Source: Thermodesulfomicrobium sp. WS
Lineage (GTDB): Bacteria; Desulfobacterota; Desulfovibrionia; Desulfovibrionales; Desulfomicrobiaceae
Length of the DNA: 64,000 bases
Direction: 5' to 3'
NCBI RefSeq assembly: GCF_027925145.1
Contig: NZ_AP027130.1
Coordinates: 558,001-622,000 of the forward strand
The notes below the pieces were generated by a model. The model did no database searches, had not been told where the DNA came from, and saw nothing but the letters and a program-made list of their open reading frames with translations. This document shows, in pieces, positions 14,608-56,868 of the stretch. How positions within the stretch are numbered: the stretch's first letter is position 1; every line of letters begins with the position of its first letter. A program made the translations under genes and the position numbers.

Positions 14608-15647
14608 GCCGGGTTAGGGTGGGGCAGTTCATGGCGCAGCACCAAGCGCCACAGGTCTCGGGCCGAGGGGGCGGCGAGGGTGTTTTTGATCTCCGCGCCC
14701 ACGGAAACCAGGGACACCGGAAGCTGGGTGCGTACCGCCTGATTGACGATTTGGCCAAAATTACAGGCTTCGTCGAGCTTCGTCCAGACGATGCTTGCGG
14801 TGCGGGGGCCAAGGAAGCGCTGCATGAAGGCGCGGGTCTGGGCTTCGGAGAAAAGCGGCGCCAGCACGGCATGCAGCAGGGCTTCTTGGGCCAGGGGGGC
14901 GGGCAATGCGTCCAGGGTGGCTGGCGAGGCGTCCACGAGCAGGCAATCGAAATCCTTGGGCGCAGGCCAGCCTTCGCGCAGGGCGTCGCAAAAGGCGATG
15001 CCCGAAAGCTCGGCGTAGTGGCGCAGCACCAGGCGTCCTTGGTTGCCCGCGGCGTGGGCGAGGAGCACGCGGGTTTGGGGCTGGGTGCGTTTGAGGTGCA
15101 GCGCCAGGCGCAGGATCACGCTGCTGGTCCCACATCCCGATGGGCCGGCAAAGAGGTGCACGCGTCCTGGCCATGGGGACGACCACCATGGCCGCACCGG
15201 CGTGAGCCCTTGGAGCACGGACAGGATGGGCTCGGTGGGCGCGGTGCGGAAGCGTTCGGCCAGCGACAGGCGGACGCTGTCCTCCACGCCTTCGCGTTCG
15301 AGGGTATCGAGAAGGGCGCGGTGGCGGGGCGAGAGCATGGTCGTGTCCAGCCCTGGCTTGAGGACGGCCATGAGGTGGCGGCGCAAGAGCTCCCATTCCG
15401 CGCGCAGGGCCGCAGCGTCACCGGGCGCGGTGGCCGTGGGCGCCAGGAGGTCGGTGGGCTCGGCTGCAGGCGTCTTAGGGGCTTGGGGCGGGAGGGGCGT
15501 TTCCCGGGCGGCCATGATCTCCACCCACGAACCGTCGTCTTTGGTGACGGTCTTGGTGCCGAGGATGATGGCGTCTGTCCCGAGCTCGGCCTTGATGCGC
15601 CCCATGACTTCCGTGGCGCTGCGGCCCACATAGGTTTTGACCTGCAC
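14604..15647 (-). CDS. flhF: FlhF-like SRP-family GTPase with degenerate P-loop
   Basis: A 347-residue protein. The N-terminus (MQVKTYVGRSATEVMGRIK, ELGTDAIILGTKTV) matches the FlhF B domain. The proline-rich linker covers 50-75 and the NG domain starts near 85. The P-loop, usually GPTGVGKTT, reads GPSGCGTSS at residues 168-176, so the lysine and first threonine are changed. The G3 motif, usually DTAGR, reads DASPA near 239. The TKLDE G4 motif at 289-293 is intact. It sits in the family's normal place between flhA and flhG. FlhF sets the flagellar pole; this one may bind nucleotide poorly or act as a scaffold. Confidence 0.88.
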   Translation of the reverse strand: MQVKTYVGRSATEVMGRIKAELGTDAIILGTKTVTKDDGSWVEIMAARETPLPPQAPKTPAAEPTDLLAPTATAPGDAAALRAEWELLRRHLMAVLKPGLDTTMLSPRHRALLDTLEREGVEDSVRLSLAERFRTAPTEPILSVLQGLTPVRPWWSSPWPGRVHLFAGPSGCGTSSVILRLALHLKRTQPQTRVLLAHAAGNQGRLVLRHYAELSGIAFCDALREGWPAPKDFDCLLVDASPATLDALPAPLAQEALLHAVLAPLFSEAQTRAFMQRFLGPRTASIVWTKLDEACNFGQIVNQAVRTQLPVSLVSVGAEIKNTLAAPSARDLWRLVLRHELPHPNPA

Positions 15648-26197: not shown

Positions 26198-26273
26198 TGG
26201 TGGGCGGTACAGGGATCGAACCTATGACTTTCGGCTTGTAAGGCCGACGCTCTCCCAGCTGAGCTAACCGCCC
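26198..26273 (-). tRNA. tRNA-Val (anticodon TAC)
   Basis: Acceptor GGGCGGT pairs with ACCGCCC, anticodon loop CTTACAA gives TAC, CCA is encoded. It lies just left of the 17-bp repeat that bounds the island. Confidence 0.95.
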
Positions 26274-26313
26274 GAAGTACAGCGCCTTATAGAGTGATGG
26301 CAGCGGCTTGTCA

Positions 26314-26330
26314 AACGCTGCCTGCGTCCG
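26314..26330. repeat. Left copy of a 17-bp direct repeat (att-like)
   Basis: AACGCTGCCTGCGTCCG occurs here and, identical, at 29208-29224. On the minus strand this copy reads GAC GCA GGC AGC GTT TGA, that is, it would supply the stop of a gene ending DAGSV. The right copy lies in the end of the protease gene in that same frame. Confidence 0.7.
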
Positions 26331-26509
26331 TTCAAAATGGCGACCATGGCACAGGGACGGGGGCAGCTCCCGACGCTCTACGAGATGACCTCGCGCCCAT
26401 CGTCATGGAGGCGCCGGCACTGGGTATGCACGCAGCGCGTGTTGCAGGAGACCCGGCCGGGTGTTTTTGCCGGCGCAGGCGGAGAGGGACCAGCGGCATC
26501 GGCAACCCG

Positions 26510-27358
26510 CTAGGGGGTGCCAGCCCTGCCTTTGCCTGGTTTTTGGGCATTCCGGGCTGGAGGATTGTCACCCTGCCGGGCGGTGTCGGCGAGATACGCA
26601 TCGAGCGCCTTGGAGAAATTTCCAGGTTGGGCAAGCTGACGAGAGAGTTCCTGTCCGCGCAGGAGTGCCTCGCGGGAAAGCTTGTGCGCCAGCCAGTCAC
26701 GATTGCTACGCGCCTTGTTCTCGCTCGAAGAATCATTGGCCGCCGAAAGATTGTAGAGCGCGTAGGCGAGAACCTTGTCTTCCGGCACGCCTTGGCCGTC
26801 CTCATACATGGCGCCCAGGTTGTTTTGCGCTTTCGTATCTCCCTGCTCGGCGGCCTTGCGATACCATTTGACGGCTTCGGCGTAGTCCTGTGGCACGCCT
26901 CGGCCGTTCTTATACATGGCGCCCAGGTTGTTTTGCGCTTTCGTATCTCCCTGCTCGGCGGCCTTGCGATACCATTTGACGGCTTCGGCGTAGTCCTGTG
27001 GCACGCCTCGGCCGTCCCCATACATGAAGCCCAAGGCGCCTTGCGCGGCCGCATACCCCTGCTCGGCGGCCTTGCGGAACCACTTGAGGGCTTCGGCATC
27101 GTCCTTCGACACGCCTTGGCCCTTCGCATACATGACGCCCAGTTTGTTTTGCGCGCCTGCATGCCCCTGCTCGGCGAGCGGACGCCACTCCTTAAGGGCC
27201 GTGGCGTAGTCGCCGCGGTCATAGGCTGCAAGCCCTTCATCGAAGCCGGCCAGGGCCGGCGGCGTCAATGAAACCAGCACCACCGAAAACAGGACAGCGG
27301 CAAGAATCGCCATTCTCCAGCCGGGGCGTAAAAATTGAAGCGAAGACAAAATGTTCAT
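26510..27358 (-). CDS. Secreted Sel1-repeat protein
   Basis: A 282-residue protein. Residues 1-37 form a signal peptide (WRMAILAAVLFSVVLVSL, then TPPALAG). The body has Sel1-like repeats of 36 residues from about 45 to 190, each following the pattern A..LG.MY..G.GV..D..EA..W..KAAEQG. Two repeats, 26804-26907 and 26912-27015, are identical over 104 of 108 bases. The C-terminal part is helical and charged. Sel1 proteins are exported adaptors in signalling or protein-protein contacts; no partner is known here. It lies in the island. Confidence 0.8.
   Translation of the reverse strand: MNILSSLQFLRPGWRMAILAAVLFSVVLVSLTPPALAGFDEGLAAYDRGDYATALKEWRPLAEQGHAGAQNKLGVMYAKGQGVSKDDAEALKWFRKAAEQGYAAAQGALGFMYGDGRGVPQDYAEAVKWYRKAAEQGDTKAQNNLGAMYKNGRGVPQDYAEAVKWYRKAAEQGDTKAQNNLGAMYEDGQGVPEDKVLAYALYNLSAANDSSSENKARSNRDWLAHKLSREALLRGQELSRQLAQPGNFSKALDAYLADTARQGDNPPARNAQKPGKGRAGTP
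26804..27015. repeat. Two near-identical tandem units (period 108 bp) in the Sel1 gene
   Basis: Copies 26804-26907 and 26912-27015 are identical over 104 bases, and the intervening four bases make up the 108-bp period (36 codons). Other Sel1 units of the same gene are much less alike, so this pair was duplicated recently or kept alike by gene conversion. Confidence 0.9.
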
Positions 27359-27614
27359 GGGTGCTCCTCCGTTGTACGATGGTCAACACACGGCATCGGC
27401 CAGAAGCCAAAGGGCGAAACGGCCTCGCCCGACACGCATTCCGCCGAGCTGACTGACACGGGTGATCCGCATCCCGGACCTGTCGCCCTGCACCAGACCC
27501 AGGAGGGCGGTGGGTTCGTTTGCCCCTTGCCAGATGCTACTGAGGGAAAGCAAGGGCGGGCAAGACGGCAAGCAGGCCATTGATCCAGACGAGCAGGGTT
27601 TTCAACGCAGCGCC

Positions 27615-27884
27615 TCAGAATTTCTCGGCCTGAGCGCGGCGACGTGCGGCTTCTTCGGCGCTTGATCGCTCGTTGAATGACGCATGAAGCCGTTTGGTGA
27701 GATAGAGCACGCCCATCGAGAAGGAAAGCTGCGGGGCTTCAAGCATTACCACGCTGTCGCCTTTGCGATAAGTGGCCGAAGCATCGCCGACGAACGCAAA
27801 ATGCTCTCGCCCCGGGGTGGAGTATTTTTTAGGCAGAGCGGCGGCGCCTCCCTTGAGGCGCCTTTTGTCCAGCGTTATGATCAC
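27615..27884 (-). pseudogene. Fragment of a protein of unknown function
   Basis: A frame of 89 residues ending RRRAQAEKF reads like the C-terminal half of a larger gene: the same frame is open upstream (FIFGKDNKLESVIITLDKRR) without a plausible start, and other frames in 27885-28135 also look like pieces of genes (GLEVGVVDLATVKNKP). I do not recognise the family. Frame switches suggest decay. 27359-27614 to its left shows nothing I can support. Confidence 0.35.
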
Positions 27885-28135
27885 GCTTTCGAGCTTGTTG
27901 TCCTTGCCGAAGATAAAGCGGCCTGCTTTGCAGGCCCTTGATGTCGGGACTGTCCGCTTCCCCGTCGAGCATGGGGCCGCCCGTCTATTTGTGGATGCCA
28001 GCCTCAGTGAGGCGGGTCTGTCCGGCCGGCTTGTTTTTCACGGTCGCCAAGTCGACCACCCCGACCTCAAGCCCCAATGGAGCGACGTTCTCTAGCGTGG
28101 CAAAAACACCAAGGCTCGCAACTGGGTTGCGGTAT

Positions 28136-28282
28136 TCATGAGTTGCTCGCGCCGGTTTCGGGATCGATTGGGGGGATCCCCATGAGTAATTTTTTTTGAA
28201 CTTCGATGATGGGTTGGGCTTTTTTGATCCGGTCACGGAGCTTTTGGTTTTCACGTTCCAGCTCGGCGACCGGGGAAATCAT
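28136..28282 (-). pseudogene. C-terminal fragment of a transposase OrfA
   Basis: A 48-residue frame with ELERENQKLRDRIKKAQ and then PIIEVQKKLLMGIPP resembles the leucine-zipper end of IS3-type OrfA transposase subunits (KAE-IIE-QKK-S-LLGIPL). No N-terminal helix-turn-helix and no OrfB are present, so it is a remnant. It supports a mobile origin for this segment. Confidence 0.5.
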
Positions 28283-28335
28283 GTCCAAGTAATTGGGGCC
28301 TTACACCGAGTTGATGCGGTCGTTCGGGAGTATTT

Positions 28336-29061
28336 TTACAGGCTAAAGCGAGGCAATTCGTCCTCCGATAACCATTTGCGGCAGATGTTCAGCGTATTTA
28401 CCCATTCGTCTACAACAAGATGTTCATCTGGGGTGTGTTCCCCCCGATAACCAATGCTGAGATTGACCCCGCAAATAGAACGGCAAAGAGTAACTATATC
28501 TGTATAGGACAAGAAATCTGGTTCTGAGTATCCAGTTTTTTGTCTAACGTAATTCCGAAAATTCTCGGTTCCAACTGAATAGCATTTGAAATCATTACCG
28601 TTTCTTCTATCCAATTGAATCATAAACTGGTGGTTTGAGTTTATTGCATTGGCAATATCATGATTCTCATTCATTAACCACTTGCTTCCTCTTCGACCAT
28701 CCTCTTCTCCATTAGTTATAAGTATAGAATGCCCCATTTCCTTAAGTAGCCATATAATGGCACAACCGGCTCTATCGTCGGCGCCGAGTGCGCCGTTTTT
28801 ATTCCTGATGATTCCATTCTGCTGAAAAATTATTTTAGGTTCATAGCTATATCCATAGTAGGAATAATCCCAATACGTATCAGCATGCGCAACAAGCAGC
28901 ACTTTATTTTTCCGATAGCCCTCAATATAAAGAAATTTCTCCAAGCCCTCTCCTCTGAGTATTGCTCCAGGTATTGCGAGAAACTTTTCAAATACCGGAT
29001 CCGCATTTTCAAGGGGCATTCTCAAGAACTCCATCAACACGTCTAAGTCGTTCATAGCCAT
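28336..29061 (-). CDS. Zinc-dependent metallopeptidase-like protein (M28/M42-like)
   Basis: A 241-residue protein with metal-ligand-like motifs in the order seen in M20/M28/M42 peptidases: VLLVAHADT (about 54-62, H ligand), GALGADDRAGCAI (about 90-102, D ligand) and LITNGEEDGRRGS (about 113-126, catalytic and ligand E), with a later GYRGEHTPDEHL carrying H. The size is below the usual 350, so it may be a minimal catalytic domain. The stretch 28180-29170 is clearly richer in A and T than flanks, which points to horizontal transfer. Substrate unknown. Confidence 0.6.
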   Translation of the reverse strand: MAMNDLDVLMEFLRMPLENADPVFEKFLAIPGAILRGEGLEKFLYIEGYRKNKVLLVAHADTYWDYSYYGYSYEPKIIFQQNGIIRNKNGALGADDRAGCAIIWLLKEMGHSILITNGEEDGRRGSKWLMNENHDIANAINSNHQFMIQLDRRNGNDFKCYSVGTENFRNYVRQKTGYSEPDFLSYTDIVTLCRSICGVNLSIGYRGEHTPDEHLVVDEWVNTLNICRKWLSEDELPRFSL

Positions 29062-29112
29062 AAGTCGTTCCCTCCCTTAACTCATTTTCTCCATAGTCTT
29101 CATTGCCAGACA

Positions 29113-29144
29113 ATAGTCTAATCAACATAGTCTAATCAACATAG
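29113..29144. repeat. Tandem 14-bp repeat upstream of the peptidase gene
   Basis: ATAGTCTAATCAAC occurs twice head to tail (29113-29126 and 29127-29140) followed by a partial copy ATAG. It lies in the AT-rich leader of the peptidase gene and might be an operator or a slippage product. Confidence 0.5.
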
Positions 29145-29192
29145 AATATTCCCGAAGGAACGACCTGCTTGCTAACGACAAAAATGGCATTT

Positions 29193-29708
29193 TCATTGGC
29201 TGGTTACAACGCTGCCTGCGTCCGCGGGGCTTGCGGGAGGGGCGATATGGAGGATGGCGCGGATTTCTCGGCGGGCGGCTTCCAGATAGGCGGGGTAGGC
29301 GGCCTTGAGCGTGGGGGTGAGCTCCATGGACCACTGGGAAATACACAACGGCTCGATGCCAAGCACCGTGAGTTGGGGACGGTTGCCGAGGAGTTCTGCC
29401 ATTTGGAGGGAGTCGAGGAGGTCGATATCGTGGATGGAGAGGCGCTGGGAATCGCTGTGGCGCAGCTCATGTTCCGTAAGACGGTAGATGGTCCCCGGGG
29501 GTTTGCCGCCGTGCACCACGTCGAGCACCAGGATATGGTGATAGTTTTGGAAAAGATAAAAGATGTCCTGGGTGAAGGTGCCGCCGTCGAGGAAATCCAC
29601 CGCCTCGGTGGGCCACGATTCCTGGGCGAGATCTTGGACCGCGTGAACGCCGACGCCCTCGTCCGTGAGCAGCAGGTTCCCCACGCCCAGTACCAAGAGA
29701 TGTTTCAT
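29193..29708 (-). CDS. Hydrogenase maturation protease (peptidase M52), for HysA by position
   Basis: A 171-residue endopeptidase that removes the C-terminal tail of the large subunit after nickel insertion. GVGNLLLTDEGVGVHAVQ holds the metal-binding E near residue 16, and VLDVVHGGKPPG the aspartate near 62, with H in LSIHDIDLL near 92. It lies 78 bases behind hysA on the same strand, beyond a terminator. The last codons (...DAGSVVTSQ) come from the island junction: the 17-bp repeat is inside ADAGSV and the four residues behind it are island sequence. Whether HysA needs this cleavage is not certain; its own C-terminus ends soon after the motif. Confidence 0.85.
   Translation of the reverse strand: MKHLLVLGVGNLLLTDEGVGVHAVQDLAQESWPTEAVDFLDGGTFTQDIFYLFQNYHHILVLDVVHGGKPPGTIYRLTEHELRHSDSQRLSIHDIDLLDSLQMAELLGNRPQLTVLGIEPLCISQWSMELTPTLKAAYPAYLEAARREIRAILHIAPPASPADAGSVVTSQ
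29208..29224. repeat. Right copy of the 17-bp direct repeat (att-like)
   Basis: Identical to 26314-26330; inside the 3' end of the hydrogenase protease gene. Confidence 0.7.
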
Positions 29709-41898: not shown

Positions 41899-43833
41899 TC
41901 ACGACGCCCCAAGCCCCATGCCTGGGCGCATGACCTGGCCGGTGAGGGTGGTCTCGTAGCCGCCCAGGGCCTGGATGCGCTTGTGGAAGTCTGGGCGTTG
42001 GAGCACGGCGAGGATGCGCTCGATGCGCGCGTCTGCGGCGTCCTCGCGGAAGACGAGGTCGTAGCGTTCCCGGGCCAGGGGGATGAAGTCCAGGTCCAGG
42101 GCCCGGGCCGCGGCGAGGATCCCCAGGCCGCAGTCCGCCGCTCCGGTGCGCACGTTGGCGGCCACGGCCATGTGGGTGAATTCCTCGTGCTCGTAGCCGC
42201 GCACTTGGGCAGGCGCTATGCCCGCCTGCCGCAGGGCGTGGTCGAGGAGGATGCGGGTGCCTGCGCCCCGTTGGCGGTTGACGAAGCGCACGTCCGGCCG
42301 GGCCAGATCCGCCACGCCGGCGATCTTGAGGGGGTTGCCTTTGGCGACCATCAGCCCTTGCTGGCGGATGGCCAGGTTGACGCAGGTTACCGCCACCTGG
42401 GGGAGGTACTTGGCCAGAAATGGGAAGTTGAAGTCCCCGCTTTCCGGATCAAAGAGGTGCATGCCTGCCAGAAGCGTCCGGCCGTCGCGCAGGGCGGTGA
42501 TGCCGCCCATGGAGCCCACGTGGCTTGAGGCCACACGCAGGGGTTCCTCCTGCCCCATGAGTTCGTCCGCCAGGAGGTCCAGCAGGTTGTCGTGGCTGCC
42601 GACGATGATGACGGTGCGATCGAGCTCCGCCCGTGGGCCCAAGAGTCTTGCCCGCACCACGGCGCCGGCCTCGATCCCTTCGCTTTCCGCCGGGATGATG
42701 GTCACGCCCTGGGCGCGCACCATGGTGGAGATGAGGCCCGCCCCGCGGCCCAGGGGCATGCCCACCAGGCGTTCGCCCACCCGGCCGATGGCCAGGCGGA
42801 GGTACTCATTGGTGCCGAGCTTGGAGGGCGTGGCCCGCGCCAGCTCCACCTCCACCTCCGGCCGTTCCGGCTGGGGCATGTGCCCGAGCCAGCACAAAAG
42901 CGGCACCACTGCTTCCTCCACACACACCGCAGCGGATACCGGGTAGCCGGGGACGCCAATGAGGAGCCTGCCCCCGGCGACCCCCAGCAAGGTGGGCTTG
43001 CCGGGCATGATGTTCATGCCGTGCACCAGCACTTCGCCAAGGCGCTCCATGACCATGCGCGAGTAGTCCTTGGCCCCGGCGGAGGAGCCGGCGCCGATGG
43101 CCACGGCGTGAAATTCCTGCAAGGCGCGCCCCACCGCCTCGGCCAAGGCATCGGGGGTGTCGGGTACCGGCGGGGTCACTGTGACTTCGATGCCCAGCGG
43201 CCGCAAGAGGCCGGCCACAAGCTGGGAGTTGCTCTCGATGACCTGGCCTGCGGCGGGGGCTGGCCGGGCGCGGAAGTCGAGGACCTCATCGCCGGTGGGG
43301 ATGAAGCAGAGCCGCGGGCGCTGCCATACCGTCACTTCCCAGATGCCGGCCGTGAGCATGGCGGCCACGTCGGCGGCGCACAGGTGACGGCCGCGGGGAA
43401 GCAGCAGTTCCGTGGCCACGATGTCTTCACCGATGCGGCGCACGTGCTGCATGGGAAAGACCGCGGTTTCGGTCTCCAGGGCGTCGCCGGTGTCCTGCAC
43501 CACGTGTTCGATCATGAGCACGGCATCGGTGCCGGGGGGCAGCGGGTTGCCGGTATTGACGGCAAAGGCGCTTTCTCCCTTGACAAGGCGCACGGGTGCC
43601 CCCGGCCGGGCGGTAAAGGTGTCGGCGGCGCGCACGGCGTAGCCGTCCATGGCCGCGCCGTGGAAGGTGGGGCTGGAAAAGCGGGCAAACACCGGCTCTG
43701 CGAGCACCCGCCCCAGGGCTTCGGGGCTGGGAACGGTCTCGGTGCCGATGATGGCGTCGCGGTCCAGGGCGGCCTGCACGCGGCGCAGGGCGTCTTCCAC
43801 GGAGAGCATGTGGAGATAGACATTGCGTTTCAT
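41899..43833 (-). CDS. MoeA-family protein fused to a periplasmic-binding-protein-like domain
   Basis: A 644-residue protein. Residues 1-400 are a MoeA: the start has VEDALRRVQAALD, then AEPVFA, HGAAMDGYAVRAADT and GTDAVLMIEH. Residues from about 420 carry an LysR-substrate/PBP-like domain: GSHDNLLDLLADEL, then FNFPFLAKYLPQV and RQRGAGTRILLDHAL. This MoeA-PBP fusion is known and probably senses or handles molybdate or tungstate while inserting the metal. It starts with ATG overlapping the upstream moeA stop by four bases. A longer reading upstream is out of frame with that gene. Confidence 0.85.
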   Translation of the reverse strand: MKRNVYLHMLSVEDALRRVQAALDRDAIIGTETVPSPEALGRVLAEPVFARFSSPTFHGAAMDGYAVRAADTFTARPGAPVRLVKGESAFAVNTGNPLPPGTDAVLMIEHVVQDTGDALETETAVFPMQHVRRIGEDIVATELLLPRGRHLCAADVAAMLTAGIWEVTVWQRPRLCFIPTGDEVLDFRARPAPAAGQVIESNSQLVAGLLRPLGIEVTVTPPVPDTPDALAEAVGRALQEFHAVAIGAGSSAGAKDYSRMVMERLGEVLVHGMNIMPGKPTLLGVAGGRLLIGVPGYPVSAAVCVEEAVVPLLCWLGHMPQPERPEVEVELARATPSKLGTNEYLRLAIGRVGERLVGMPLGRGAGLISTMVRAQGVTIIPAESEGIEAGAVVRARLLGPRAELDRTVIIVGSHDNLLDLLADELMGQEEPLRVASSHVGSMGGITALRDGRTLLAGMHLFDPESGDFNFPFLAKYLPQVAVTCVNLAIRQQGLMVAKGNPLKIAGVADLARPDVRFVNRQRGAGTRILLDHALRQAGIAPAQVRGYEHEEFTHMAVAANVRTGAADCGLGILAAARALDLDFIPLARERYDLVFREDAADARIERILAVLQRPDFHKRIQALGGYETTLTGQVMRPGMGLGAS

Positions 43834-45095
43834 GATTCCTCCTCGCCAAAGGGACGCGCGTCCCAGAGTATGACCGGTACCGTGGCCCCGGCCTGAATGC
43901 CCTCGAGATTGTCGTCCACCCGCACCAGACCGTGGGCGTCGAGGAGCGAGCGCAGCAGCCCCGACTTGGCGTTCACCGGCTGGGCCCACAACCCGTCTTG
44001 TCGGCGCACCAGGCGCACCCGCACGTATTCCTCGCGTCCGGGTTTGGAGGCGATGTTGTGGGTGAGCCGGGCGAGAGTCCACGGGGGCGGGGCAAAGGCC
44101 TGGGTTTCTCCGGAGAGGTGCCGCAGCAGCGGGATCCCCAAGACCCAGAGTACCACGAAGGCCGAGGCCATCTGCCCCGGCAGCCCCAGTACCGGCCGCT
44201 CCTGCCAGCGGGCGACGATGGTGGGTTTGCCGGGGGCCATGGCCACCCCGTGGGCGAGGATCTGCGCGCCCAGGGCCTCGAGCACGCCGACGGTCAGGTC
44301 GCGTACCCCCACGGAGCTGCCGCCGGAGATACAGATGAGATCTGCCCCGGCGTCGAACCCCTGGCACAAGGCGTCTCGCAGCGCAGTCTCGTCGTCGGGC
44401 ACTAATCCGAGGTCCAGAGGCACGCCGCCGTGCTGGCGGGCGAGGCTTCGGATGACCGGACCGTTGACGTCCCGGATCTGCCCGGGCCGGGGGGCGGCGG
44501 TTACGGGCACCAATTCGTCACCGGTGGAGAGCACCGCCACGCGTGGACGCCGCACCACCGGCACCGTGTGCACACCCAGGGCGGCGAGGAGTCCCAGATC
44601 CTGGGCCCGCAGGCGGGTGCCGCGGGAAATGGCCTGCGCGCCCCTGCGCACGTCTTCGCCGGCGAGGAGCACGTTGTCGCCGGGGGCCACCGAGCGGCGG
44701 ATCTCCACGGTATCCGTGCCCAGGCACTGGGTGTGCTCCACCATGACCACGGCGTCGGCGTCGGCGGGAAGGCTCGCGCCGGTAGGAAGCGCCATGCAGG
44801 TCTCTGGGGCAAGGGCCGGGATGTCCTGGGCGTCGATGGGCACGGCCCCGGCAAGCTCCAGGTAGGCGGGCAGTGACTCGCTGGCGCCAAACGTGTCCTG
44901 GGCGCGGACGGCGTAGCCGTCCATGGCCGAACGACTGCGCGCCGGCAAGTCTTCGGGGGCCGTGATGTCGTGGCCGCAGACGCGGCCGAGGGCCTCTTCC
45001 AAAGGGACGTCTTCGGTATCCGTGAGCGGCGCAAACGCCATGAGCATCTGGCGCATTGCCTCCACGGAAACCACACGGAAAAAAGTACGCTCCAT
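43830..45095 (-). CDS. moeA: Molybdopterin molybdenumtransferase MoeA
   Basis: A 421-residue MoeA that ligates molybdenum to molybdopterin. It shows SRSAMDGYAVRAQDT near 50-63, the GTDAVVM-like ADADAVVMVEHTQ, STGDELVPV near 185, the NGP motif DVNGPVIRSLA, SGGSSVGVRD near 250 and APGKPTIVARW near 290. It is a stand-alone MoeA and the partner of the PBP fusion right behind it. It follows the ModE-type gene by seven bases. Confidence 0.93.
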   Translation of the reverse strand: MERTFFRVVSVEAMRQMLMAFAPLTDTEDVPLEEALGRVCGHDITAPEDLPARSRSAMDGYAVRAQDTFGASESLPAYLELAGAVPIDAQDIPALAPETCMALPTGASLPADADAVVMVEHTQCLGTDTVEIRRSVAPGDNVLLAGEDVRRGAQAISRGTRLRAQDLGLLAALGVHTVPVVRRPRVAVLSTGDELVPVTAAPRPGQIRDVNGPVIRSLARQHGGVPLDLGLVPDDETALRDALCQGFDAGADLICISGGSSVGVRDLTVGVLEALGAQILAHGVAMAPGKPTIVARWQERPVLGLPGQMASAFVVLWVLGIPLLRHLSGETQAFAPPPWTLARLTHNIASKPGREEYVRVRLVRRQDGLWAQPVNAKSGLLRSLLDAHGLVRVDDNLEGIQAGATVPVILWDARPFGEEES

Positions 45096-46495: not shown

Positions 46496-47142
46496 TGCGC
46501 CCCTTCCATGAGGAAGTCTGGGGCTTGGTCCTGGCCGGGGGGCTGTCGTCGCGCCTTGGCCAGGACAAGGCCTTGCTCCCTTTCCGCGGGGTGCCCCTGG
46601 TGGAGCGGGCGATGGCGCTCCTTTCCCGGGTGTGTCCGCGCGTGGCGGTGTCTTCGCGGCGCATGCTGCCGGGGCTCCCCATCCTTTTGGATGCCACCGA
46701 GCGTGTGGGGCCGTTGGGGGGGATCCTCACCGCCTTGGAGGCGTGGCAGCGGCCGGTGTTGGTCCTGGCGTGCGATATGCCGCGCATGGAGGAAGCAGCG
46801 CTCGTGCGGCTGCTTGCCGCCCGGCGGGCTCGCCCCGCCCACGCCCTCATGACCGTGTGGGCCCGGTACGGCACGCCGTATATCGAGGCCCTGGCCGCGG
46901 TGTATGAGCCGGCGGCCGCCGCATCCTTGCGCCAGGGTCTGGCCATGGGGGTATATCAGATCTCCCGGCTCATTCCGGCATCGCACCGCCATCACCTGCC
47001 CTATACCGAGGCCGAGGCCCATTGGTTTTTCAATGTGAACACTCCCGAAGACCTGGCGCAGCTGCATGCGGTGTGTGGTGCGCAGGCGCGGGAGCACAGC
47101 CCCCAAGAGGCTTCGGTGCATCTGCCTGTAAACAGCCAATGA
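46495..47142 (+). CDS. mobA: MobA, molybdenum cofactor guanylyltransferase, end altered by IS
   Basis: A 215-residue MobA-type nucleotidyltransferase. The family start is GLVLAGGLSSRLGQDKALLPF, then PILLDATERVGPLGGI and VLACDMPRMEEAAL. It adds GMP to molybdopterin to form the bis-MGD cofactor used by formate dehydrogenase. The GTG overlaps the fdhE stop (TAGTG). The last six codons, including VNSQ and stop, lie in the end of an insertion sequence (compare 56102-56115), so the native end has been replaced. The change is beyond the catalytic core; function is probably kept. GTG at 46483 is an alternative start. Confidence 0.88.
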   Translation: MRPFHEEVWGLVLAGGLSSRLGQDKALLPFRGVPLVERAMALLSRVCPRVAVSSRRMLPGLPILLDATERVGPLGGILTALEAWQRPVLVLACDMPRMEEAALVRLLAARRARPAHALMTVWARYGTPYIEALAAVYEPAAAASLRQGLAMGVYQISRLIPASHRHHLPYTEAEAHWFFNVNTPEDLAQLHAVCGAQAREHSPQEASVHLPVNSQ

Positions 47143-47335
47143 AAAGGTCACCTTTTTGGGACGGTTTGGGACAATAAAAATGTCATGGTTTTCACCAATG
47201 GTTGTTGTTTTCCTACCAAGGCCCCGGGGTTGTCTCCTGGGGGTTATGGATCCCCCTCGCTATGGGTTCAGGAGGGTGAAGATACCAGTGCCATGAGGAT
47301 TCTGCCGCAGGGGAGGTCTTCTTTCGTTCCTGGAC
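47127..47335 (-). mobile_element. ISNCY-like insertion sequence remnant A (one end)
   Basis: Starts TGTAAACAGCCAATGAAAA and continues through GGGACGGTTTGGGACAAT and ATGTCATGG in near identity with 56102-56310. It is the transposase 3' end of the element; the other end is missing. Region 47336-47500 shows nothing more I can name. Confidence 0.75.
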
Positions 47336-49000: not shown

Positions 49001-49375
49001 CGGCTTTCCCTCCCAGGCGTGGAATGAACGTTCATGAACCCAGAAACGCACATCCCGCATGGGTAGGGATCGGCCGTAGAGCCCATGTGCGCCCAAAAAT
49101 AGCGCACCAATGGTTTCGAGAAAAAGAGAAACATGCGGCTGCCCTCCAGAGCCTTCGGCTCCCTCCGGCAGCCCAACGGAAGATCAGAAGGACGCGGCGG
49201 AGCCGAAGAGCGAAACGGTGATGTCCCGGTGGGACTGGCTACTGTGACCAGCCCTATCGCCAGAATCCACGGAAAGCTCCTCGGTTACAGGTTGAGACAC
49301 CAGGGCCATTTGCCCTGCAAAGACGCGCTCTCTTATGCCACAACACACCACAAATCAACCCTCGGGGGGCGGGAT

Positions 49376-49530
49376 GTTCCCGGACAATGCTATGGTCACC
49401 TCTGGCTGGGACAATACAAATGGCATCCCCTGAAGACACGGGGAGGGAAGATATTCAGGCAGGCAAAGGAAGGGCGACGAGCGTTTATGACCCTGCAGGC
49501 AGTGGCCGGAGCGGGCCTGGGCAGCAGGCT
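49376..49530 (+). mobile_element. ISNCY-like insertion sequence remnant B (transposase 5' end)
   Basis: GTTCCCGGACAATGCTATGG...GGCTGGGACAATA...CCTGAAGACACGG matches the reverse complement of 56690-56810. It carries the end next to the transposase start, in opposite orientation to remnant A. 49001-49375 and 49531-49626 have no convincing gene; they hold small palindromes such as GAGCCTTCGGCTC. Confidence 0.7.
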
Positions 49531-55680: not shown

Positions 55681-55782
55681 TGTTACCGGACAATGATCTT
55701 GTCACTCTGGCTGGGACAATAAAAATGTCATCCCATGAAGACACGGGGTGACGTATTCATGAAGGCAAAGGAAGCGCGGCTG
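55681..55782 (+). mobile_element. ISNCY-like insertion sequence remnant C (transposase 5' end)
   Basis: GTTACCGGACAATGATCTTGTCAC...GGCTGGGACAATAAAAATGTCATCCCATGAAGACAC is close to remnant B and to the reverse complement of 56700-56805. It runs into a truncated MKTLGD-type start. 55783-55900 shows no gene I can name. Confidence 0.75.
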
Positions 55783-55900
55783 TATCGGTCTACGGTTTTT
55801 TGGACACGTTTTTTGTTCATCAAGCCGCGACGTTTACGGCCTCTTTCTGGATGGCCCGCACCGCTGCTGGAGTCTTGGAGCCGAGGAAAGTCCTAAAGCA

Positions 55901-56035: not shown

Positions 56036-56101
56036 GTGCTCGTGGCGAGAGCCCCTCTAGTGGGGCGGGGGGGCAGATGTCAAGCGCCAACTTGCCGCGT
56101 G

Positions 56102-56810
56102 TAAACAGCCAATGAAAATGTCACCTTTTGGGGACGGTTTGGGACAATAAAAATGTCATGGTTTTCCCCAATGGTTGTTGTTCCCCTGCCAAGGCCCCGG
56201 AGTTGTCTTCTGGGGGTTATGGATCGCCCTCGCTATGGGTTGAGGAGGGTGAAAATACCAGCGCCACGAGGATGCTGCCGCAAGGGAGCTCTGCTCCCGT
56301 TCCGGGCCGGAGCTCCGGCAAACCTGGGATTGTGCAGCTGCTCCGCATACGTGCCCAGAAAGTCGTTCGCCGCCTCCACGGTACGGATCCCTGCCAGGCG
56401 AAAAGCAATCACGAGACGGTTCTGCAGCGTCCTCCACAGCCGCTCGATGCGTCCCTTGGCCTGCGGCGACCGGGCAGCCGATGCAGCGCATTCCCAAGGT
56501 CTCCAGCACGCGGCCAAACTGGGTCTGGGGCGCGACGTTGCCTTGGAGCTCCTCTTCGCTTTGCCCTGTCCTTTGTGGACAAGGTCCACGGCTCCCTCCT
56601 CACGGTACCGATTTTTCCGTCGAATCACCTGCCGGCAGCGGGGGCCGAGGACTTCTCCCGCCTGCCGAAGCGTGAACGCTCCGGCTACTGCCTGCAGGGT
56701 CACCAACGCTCGCCGAGCTTCCTCTGCCTTCATGAATACGTCACCTAGTGTCTTCATGGGATGACATTTCTATTGTCCCAGCCAGGGTGACAATAGCATT
56801 GTCCGGGAAC
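56102..56810 (-). mobile_element. ISNCY-like insertion sequence D, both ends present, internally deleted
   Basis: The left end (TGTAAACAGCCAATGAAAATGTCACC, then TTTGGGACAAT) and the right end (GGGATGACATTTCTATTGTCCC, then GTGACAATAGCATTGTCC) are imperfect inverted relatives that share TGTCAC and GGGACAAT blocks. The element is about 0.7 kb, roughly half the size expected. Confidence 0.75.
56233..56757 (-). pseudogene. ISNCY-type transposase with internal deletion
   Basis: The frame is open for 174 residues but joins an N-terminal helix-turn-helix part (TLRQAGEVLGPRCRQVIRR) directly to the C-terminal catalytic part (SPQAKGRIERLWRTLQNRLV, IRTVEAANDFLG). The middle, including most DDE residues, is missing, so it cannot be active. 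Confidence 0.7.
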
Positions 56811-56868
56811 ACCTTCAGGATGGCTCTTGACGGCTTGGGGCTCTGCGCATAAGAGCGGCTTCTCTTCC

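Follow-up and report, generated by a model that had tools for sequence, protein, structure and literature searches.

Insertion sequences (IS) of the IS1202 family have, according to Harmer et al., outer ends of the TGT...ACA type and carry the end motif once more internally (PMC10132070). One subgroup leaves long target-site duplications (TSDs) of 16-28 base pairs (bp), with no target found for it (PMC10132070); examples are ISHahy13 (17 bp), ISVbsp4 (16 bp) and ISShha1 (16 bp) (PMC10132070), and Kojima and co-workers distinguish TSD classes of 5-6, 15-17 and 24-29 bp (PMC10045372). Some ISNCY elements carry passenger genes, and transporter IS are also mentioned (PMC10132070, PMC10045372). Here we analyze an acquired DNA segment, hereafter the island, that lies between a tRNA-Val gene and a hydrogenase maturation protease gene in Thermodesulfomicrobium sp. 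WS. The window under study is a stretch of 64,000 nucleotides (NZ_AP027130.1, positions 558,001 to 622,000), and window coordinates count from its first letter (Table 1). The direct repeat that flanks the island is probably a long TSD, left by transposition of an IS1202/ISNCY-type element upstream of the tRNA-Val promoter.

The flanking duplication and the empty junction

A first-pass annotation, made from the letters alone, had proposed a genomic island bounded by a perfect 17-bp direct repeat and integrated in the 3′ end of the protease gene. The repeat is indeed present, with two perfect copies of AACGCTGCCTGCGTCCG at 26314-26330 and 29208-29224. These are the only perfect copies in the 2.36-Mb genome, which holds one additional copy with 2 mismatches, and no perfect copy occurs among 40 related genomes searched, which excludes a widespread repeat as the explanation of the match. 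Exact repeats of at least 17 bp within 4 kb were absent from 30 simulated windows, and the real window contains few others (the Sel1 repeats, a tandem repeat, an IS remnant and one 22-mer). The flanking duplication is best counted as 16 bp plus one base common by chance, because position 26314 belongs to the -35 hexamer of the tRNA-Val promoter on the left and position 29208 is the first base of an IS end on the right. Across the right copy the protease frame reads GTT GTA ACC AGC CAA TGA, and the left copy in the same frame reads GTT TGA, as had been annotated.

An uninterrupted form of this junction exists in a sister species of the same genus (G001), whose protease has 95% protein identity. 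There, in the middle of an 11.5-kb contig (C8), groEL, tRNA-Val, the protease and the hydrogenase large subunit are consecutive, with no insertion. Because of this empty site, the segment is read as an insertion. The G001 protease ends in ...DTAV with the codons GTT TGA, and the TGA falls within the -35 TTGACA of tRNA-Val. The first-pass annotation had predicted exactly this ending for a protease that once stopped right before tRNA-Val, and G001 bears it out; the further claim that the insertion displaced the protease stop and added VTSQ is likewise supported. The expectation of an empty junction with a single copy of the repeat held for the junction itself and failed for the sequence, since only 8 of the 17 repeat positions match in G001. 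The repeat lies in the protease gene tail, which is genus-specific and fast-changing, because the protease of most other relatives ends at about residue 155. The GTT TGA at the left repeat, described earlier as a natural ending for the gene, is also constrained by the promoter because its TGA lies within the TTGACA -35 box. The tRNA-Val promoter is TTGACA-17-TACAAA in G001, compared with TTGACA-17-TATAAG in the window, and a second relative (G002) has different genes upstream of tRNA-Val, yet TTGACA is kept there. The sequence TTCAARATGGCG, which the left edge of the island has in common with G001, was considered as the protease 3′ end in displaced form and judged to be chance (p 0.09).

Two separate observations concern the tRNA-Val region of G002 (contig C7). 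About 36 bp of the tRNA-Val 3′ end is duplicated 72 bp downstream (L066:14829-14868, 14901-14936), as though an element had at one time used this end of the tRNA and left a scar. Between tRNA-Val and the second hydrogenase (L066:12600-14860), G002 has no first hydrogenase operon (small and large subunits, protease).

Insertion sequence ends and their spacing from promoters

A 20-bp repeat near tRNA-Asn led to the sequence TGTAAACAGCCAATGAAAATGTCA, the 3′ end of an IS. On the minus strand, exactly at the edge of the repeat, the inserted DNA opens with TGTAACCAGCCAATGAAAATGCCA, which matches TGTAAACAGCCAATGAAAATGTCA at 22/24 positions. The island terminus (TGTAACCAGCCAATGAAAATGCCATTTTTG) matches the IS ends at 47127 and 56100 at 22/24 and 27/31 positions, and this short match gains weight because it is sited exactly at the island boundary. 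Other remnants of the same IS family lie further along the window (Table 1). Both ends of the internally deleted copy at 56100-56811 (TGTAAACAGCCAATG.. and TGTTCCCGGACAATG..) begin with TGT; its 3′ end is the one near tRNA-Asn, and the opposite end carries TGTTCCCGGACAATGCTATTGTCACC. A second, internal motif like TGGGACAATAAAAATGTCAT lies 20-40 bp inside the remnant IS ends. The TGT...ACA outer ends expected of the long-TSD subgroup, with imperfect terminal inverted repeats of about 24-26 bp, are present in the 56100-56811 copy and at the distal end of the island, not at its tRNA-side end, and no convincing terminal inverted repeats were seen between the island's two ends. An IS3-type end was considered as the source of the right terminus, and has only CAATGAAAATG in common with it, a poorer fit than the ISNCY 3′ end.

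The copy at 56100-56811 is situated between the divergent tRNA-Asn and tRNA-Thr promoters, whose -35 boxes lie 16 and 15 bp from its ends. Elsewhere, behind a 5′ IS end (G000:C1:1424300-1425403, L172), a fused frame combines an ISNCY-type N-terminus with an IS3-type OrfB C-terminus, as if one IS had inserted in a different IS or recombined with it.

A survey of the 5′ end type covered stretches totalling 1.68 Mb, about 71% of the genome, and counted an end when 14 or 15 positions matched in its 15-bp core (n=11). TTGA starts 15-18 bp outside 9 of the 11 ends (background 1.04%, p 8e-17), at exactly 16 bp in five of them, and TTGA plus a -10-like hexamer at 16-18 bp accompanies 7 of the 11 (background 0.17%, p 1e-17). 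Three ends belong to the last batch, fetched after the rule had been written down, and show TTGACC at 16, TTGACA at 16 and TTGGCA at 17 bp; the weaker copies at 850860, 1004587 and 1007331 have TTGACT at 16 bp. On the promoter side lie, among others, genes for tRNA-Thr, tRNA-Gln/Glu and, beside a weaker end with TTGCTT at 16 bp, transfer-messenger RNA (tmRNA). The tRNA-Thr, tRNA-Gln and tmRNA genes start 56-59 bp from the IS ends, and tRNA-Val starts 58 bp from the island, where a 16-bp duplication copy adjoins the TTGACA exactly. TTGA is not part of the element, because the 16-bp spacers differ in sequence. The island repeat looks like a long TSD because one boundary of the island is an IS terminus and, at the opposite boundary, the -35 box is exactly 16 bp away, a position that this IS family has used repeatedly.

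Two 31-bp palindromes (G000:C1:1004587-1004617, 1007331-1007361) each place two 5′ IS ends back to back. The IS ends of both are 16 bp upstream of TTGACT, and they are possibly miniature elements or excision scars.

Beyond this genome, TTGACC immediately adjoins a perfect 18-bp TSD in a distant relative carried by a Paenibacillus replicon; this duplication and the 16 bp of the island both fall within the 15-28 bp expected of the long-TSD IS1202 subgroup. The Paenibacillus TTGACC lies inside a coding sequence, which hints at recognition of the sequence, in a single case that is the only plasmid relative with a long TSD of the same end type. Several plasmid relatives of the transposase have a dif-like site beside their upstream end, which accords with published accounts of the ISAjo2 subgroup, and therefore do not test the promoter rule; by eye, no dif-like site adjoins the island or the G000 IS ends, where promoters are found instead. 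It is, in our judgment, an evenly balanced proposition that long-TSD IS1202-type elements recognize sigma-70 promoters by their upstream region, insert with the 5′ end of the element about 16 bp ahead of the -35 and can take cargo along. The recognized feature would perhaps be the -35 hexamer itself or promoter-bound RNA polymerase. The agent is likely an insertion sequence of a kind already known, whose target preference we did not find described in the open-access literature.

Content of the island

The transposase piece, AT-rich peptidase and Sel1 gene that the first-pass annotation took for acquired content are all there, and the inserted DNA is a mosaic. From the protease side, the order is peptidase, IS3 OrfA remnant (the transposase piece is the OrfA C-terminus), broken plasmid-type gene and Sel1 gene. 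The island's 2,877 bp have no counterpart in 21 other family genomes searched, and within the same genome they recur elsewhere just as the IS terminus and as short matches due to chance. Neither G001 nor G002 has the Sel1 gene, in which a 104-bp perfect tandem repeat (window 26804-27100) is a sign of recent repeat expansion. Two genomes of the order contain frames that match the OrfA remnant, and in one case an NF033516 (IS3) OrfB lies downstream. The peptidase gene has a GC content of 42%, and its product retains the conserved HxD, D, EE, D and H residues, with two profile matches that are both below cut-off (PepT-like TIGR01883, E-value 3e-6; M28, E-value 0.002). Its nearest relative, 69% identical, comes from a Meiothermus metagenome-assembled genome; it is absent from 296 other genomes of the order, and searches of plasmids and IMG/VR gave no homologues, only weak phage matches at 26-30% identity. 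An AlphaFold model built from two sequences had a mean predicted local distance difference test score (pLDDT) of 39 and was not used. A tandem 14-bp repeat ATAGTCTAATCAAC (window 29113-29144) closely precedes the peptidase gene and is possibly an operator. No recombinase gene was recognized in the island, in agreement with the earlier remark that no integrase is left in the segment. Well outside the island, the window has a perfect, partly palindromic 22-bp direct repeat ACGGCGTAGCCGTCCATGGCCG with copies 1.27 kb apart (43634-43655 and 44908-44929).

Table 1. Coordinates of the island, its junctions and related IS remnants in the window
Feature	Position	Strand	Basis or remark
tRNA-Val (TAC)	26198..26273	-	ARAGORN
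tRNA-Val promoter	26286..26314	-	-35 TTGACA 26309-26314, 17-bp spacer, -10 TATAAG 26286-26291; read in sequence
Left duplication copy ACGCTGCCTGCGTCCG	26315..26330	.	16 bp, adjoins -35 box of tRNA-Val
Inserted DNA	26331..29207	.	2,877 bp
Sel1-repeat protein gene, 282 amino acids, near-identical 108-bp repeats	26510..27358	-	PF08238, E-value 3e-47
Frameshifted, stop-containing remnant like WP_119336246.1 (Hydrogenophilus plasmid pTH1)	27630..28119	-	tblastn E-value 1e-31, two frames, one stop
IS3-family OrfA C-terminal remnant	28136..28288	-	53-64% identity over 28-34 amino acids
Intact small M28/PepT-like peptidase gene, 241 amino acids, AT-rich	28336..29061	-	weak profile matches
IS1202/ISNCY-type terminus, 3′ end type, TGTAACCAGCCAATGAAAATGCCATTTTTG	29178..29208	-	starts exactly at duplication
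Hydrogenase maturation protease gene, tail lengthened by VTSQ	29193..29708	-	PF01750, NF045519
Right duplication copy	29209..29224	.	16 bp
IS remnant, 3′ end type	47127..47333	+	same IS family as island terminus
IS remnant, 5′ end type	49375..49513	+	16 bp from TTGATT; same IS family
IS remnant, 5′ end type	55681..55800	+	16 bp from TTGAGC; same IS family
Internally deleted IS copy, both ends, broken ISNCY transposase gene 56233-56757	56100..56811	-	NF033594, E-value 2.5e-30, below the profile's own cut-off

Origin of the duplication and related systems

A long TSD from IS1202/ISNCY-type transposition is the origin that we consider probable, and the target looks like a promoter-proximal site rather than the protease gene. 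An element of this type (DDE transposase, TGT...ACA ends, long TSD) would have inserted upstream of the tRNA-Val promoter, with two strand cuts 16 bp apart and one of them directly beside the -35 hexamer TTGACA. Gap repair would then have doubled the 16 bp, with one copy staying at the -35 box and the other on the protease; the tRNA promoter would have survived because the first copy stayed in place. The protease stop would have been displaced, its frame now reading into the element terminus to give VTSQ and then a stop. The cargo between the duplications may have travelled as passengers, or may stem from a later nested insertion and deletion. At the tRNA-side end, we infer that the element's terminus decayed or lost its outer bases: some 12 outer bases of the 5′ end could be missing at this edge (TTCAAAATGGCGACC...), but its similarity to that end is at chance level.

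Several results weigh against transposition by this IS. First, the unrecognizable terminal repeat at the tRNA-side end of the island is the main weakness: this end (TTCAAAATGGCG...) lacks TGT and matches neither IS end significantly (p at least 0.11), and the duplication beside it is perfect although the edge shows no terminus. Second, the match at the distal terminus is short, with a BLAST E-value of 0.33 against the 1.68 Mb. Third, no IS1202/ISNCY-type transposase remains inside the island, the copy at 56100-56811 is without a TSD, and the 71% of the genome read yielded no full-length copy of this IS flanked by an intact TSD, which leaves the island as the basis for a 16-bp TSD in this exact IS. 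Additionally, some of the 5′ ends are related copies (those at 1004587 and 1007331 have flanks in common), and therefore not all counts are independent.

Of the alternatives, the integrated island of the first-pass annotation fares best, and is still unlikely. In this reading a tyrosine recombinase would have acted at the protease 3′ end, leaving the 17-bp repeats as attL and attR, and the integrase would have been lost since. Exact direct repeats at both edges, a target in a gene 3′ end, an ending preserved with a new tail and foreign content all agree with it, and many islands insert in genes and restore them (PMC12884075). However, XerC and XerD are the only tyrosine recombinases of the genome, which also has no serine resolvase (PF00239), and the 2.9-kb cargo holds no recognized integrase remnant. 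Elements with attachment (att) sites usually target conserved sequence, whereas this repeat is unconserved in the sister species (8/17). One edge is moreover an IS terminus and the other fits the IS spacing rule. Insertion and acquired DNA are retained from the earlier account, and site-specific integration is less well supported; as a mechanism, the integrase island is probably wrong. Capture of a fragment at a staggered double-strand break, or by illegitimate recombination, with the 17-bp duplication arising from overhang fill-in, is less credible again. The segment without a recombinase, the mosaic content and the edge without a terminal repeat would suit such an event, but the genome has no Ku for non-homologous end joining, and such an event would not account for the precise coincidence of one edge with an IS terminus or for the exact contact with a -35 box that other IS ends have in common. 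It is very improbable that the island is ancestral and was lost from G001, where deletion between the repeats would yield the same junction, since this needs a perfect 17-bp repeat there by chance, and no relative of the island DNA occurs in 21 other family genomes or of the peptidase in 296 genomes of the order.

Transposition beside the -35 box would explain how an acquired block came to separate the stop codon of a gene from the tRNA promoter that overlaps it and yet left the tRNA unsilenced. If the spacing rule holds beyond this genome, it would supply the target of the long-TSD IS1202 group that the family-defining paper did not find, and would show a bacterial DDE transposon that uses promoters, often those of tRNA or tmRNA, as safe landing sites. 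Promoter recognition by such elements would be a bacterial counterpart of yeast retrotransposon targeting of tRNA promoters. A practical caution is that a repeat of 15-18 bp next to a tRNA gene is not necessarily an integrase att site.

The elements of this genome resemble the long-TSD subgroup of IS1202 in the TGT...ACA ends of the 56100-56811 copy and of the island's distal edge, in the extra internal end motif, in a fragment of an ISNCY-type transposase and in the 16-bp duplication of the island. They differ in that the 5′ end is fixed 15-18 bp upstream of a -35 hexamer, and the island copy differs in having foreign cargo, no visible second terminus and no transposase. The ISAjo2 subgroup of the same family, the dif and pdif hunters, likewise inserts in one orientation, with a constant spacing between element and protein-binding site that corresponds to the length of its 5-bp TSD; its target, however, is the XerC site of dif, whereas here the reference point is a -35 box and the spacing 16 bp. 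Integrase-borne islands in gene 3′ ends have direct repeats and a restored gene end in common with this locus, which in contrast has no recognized integrase, a non-conserved target and an IS terminus at one edge. Retrotransposons that integrate ahead of tRNA genes, such as Ty1/Ty3 of yeast, resemble the elements described here in that they keep a set distance upstream of the gene and spare it, although the enzymes are unrelated and the site used here is the bacterial -35 region, promoters of protein genes included.

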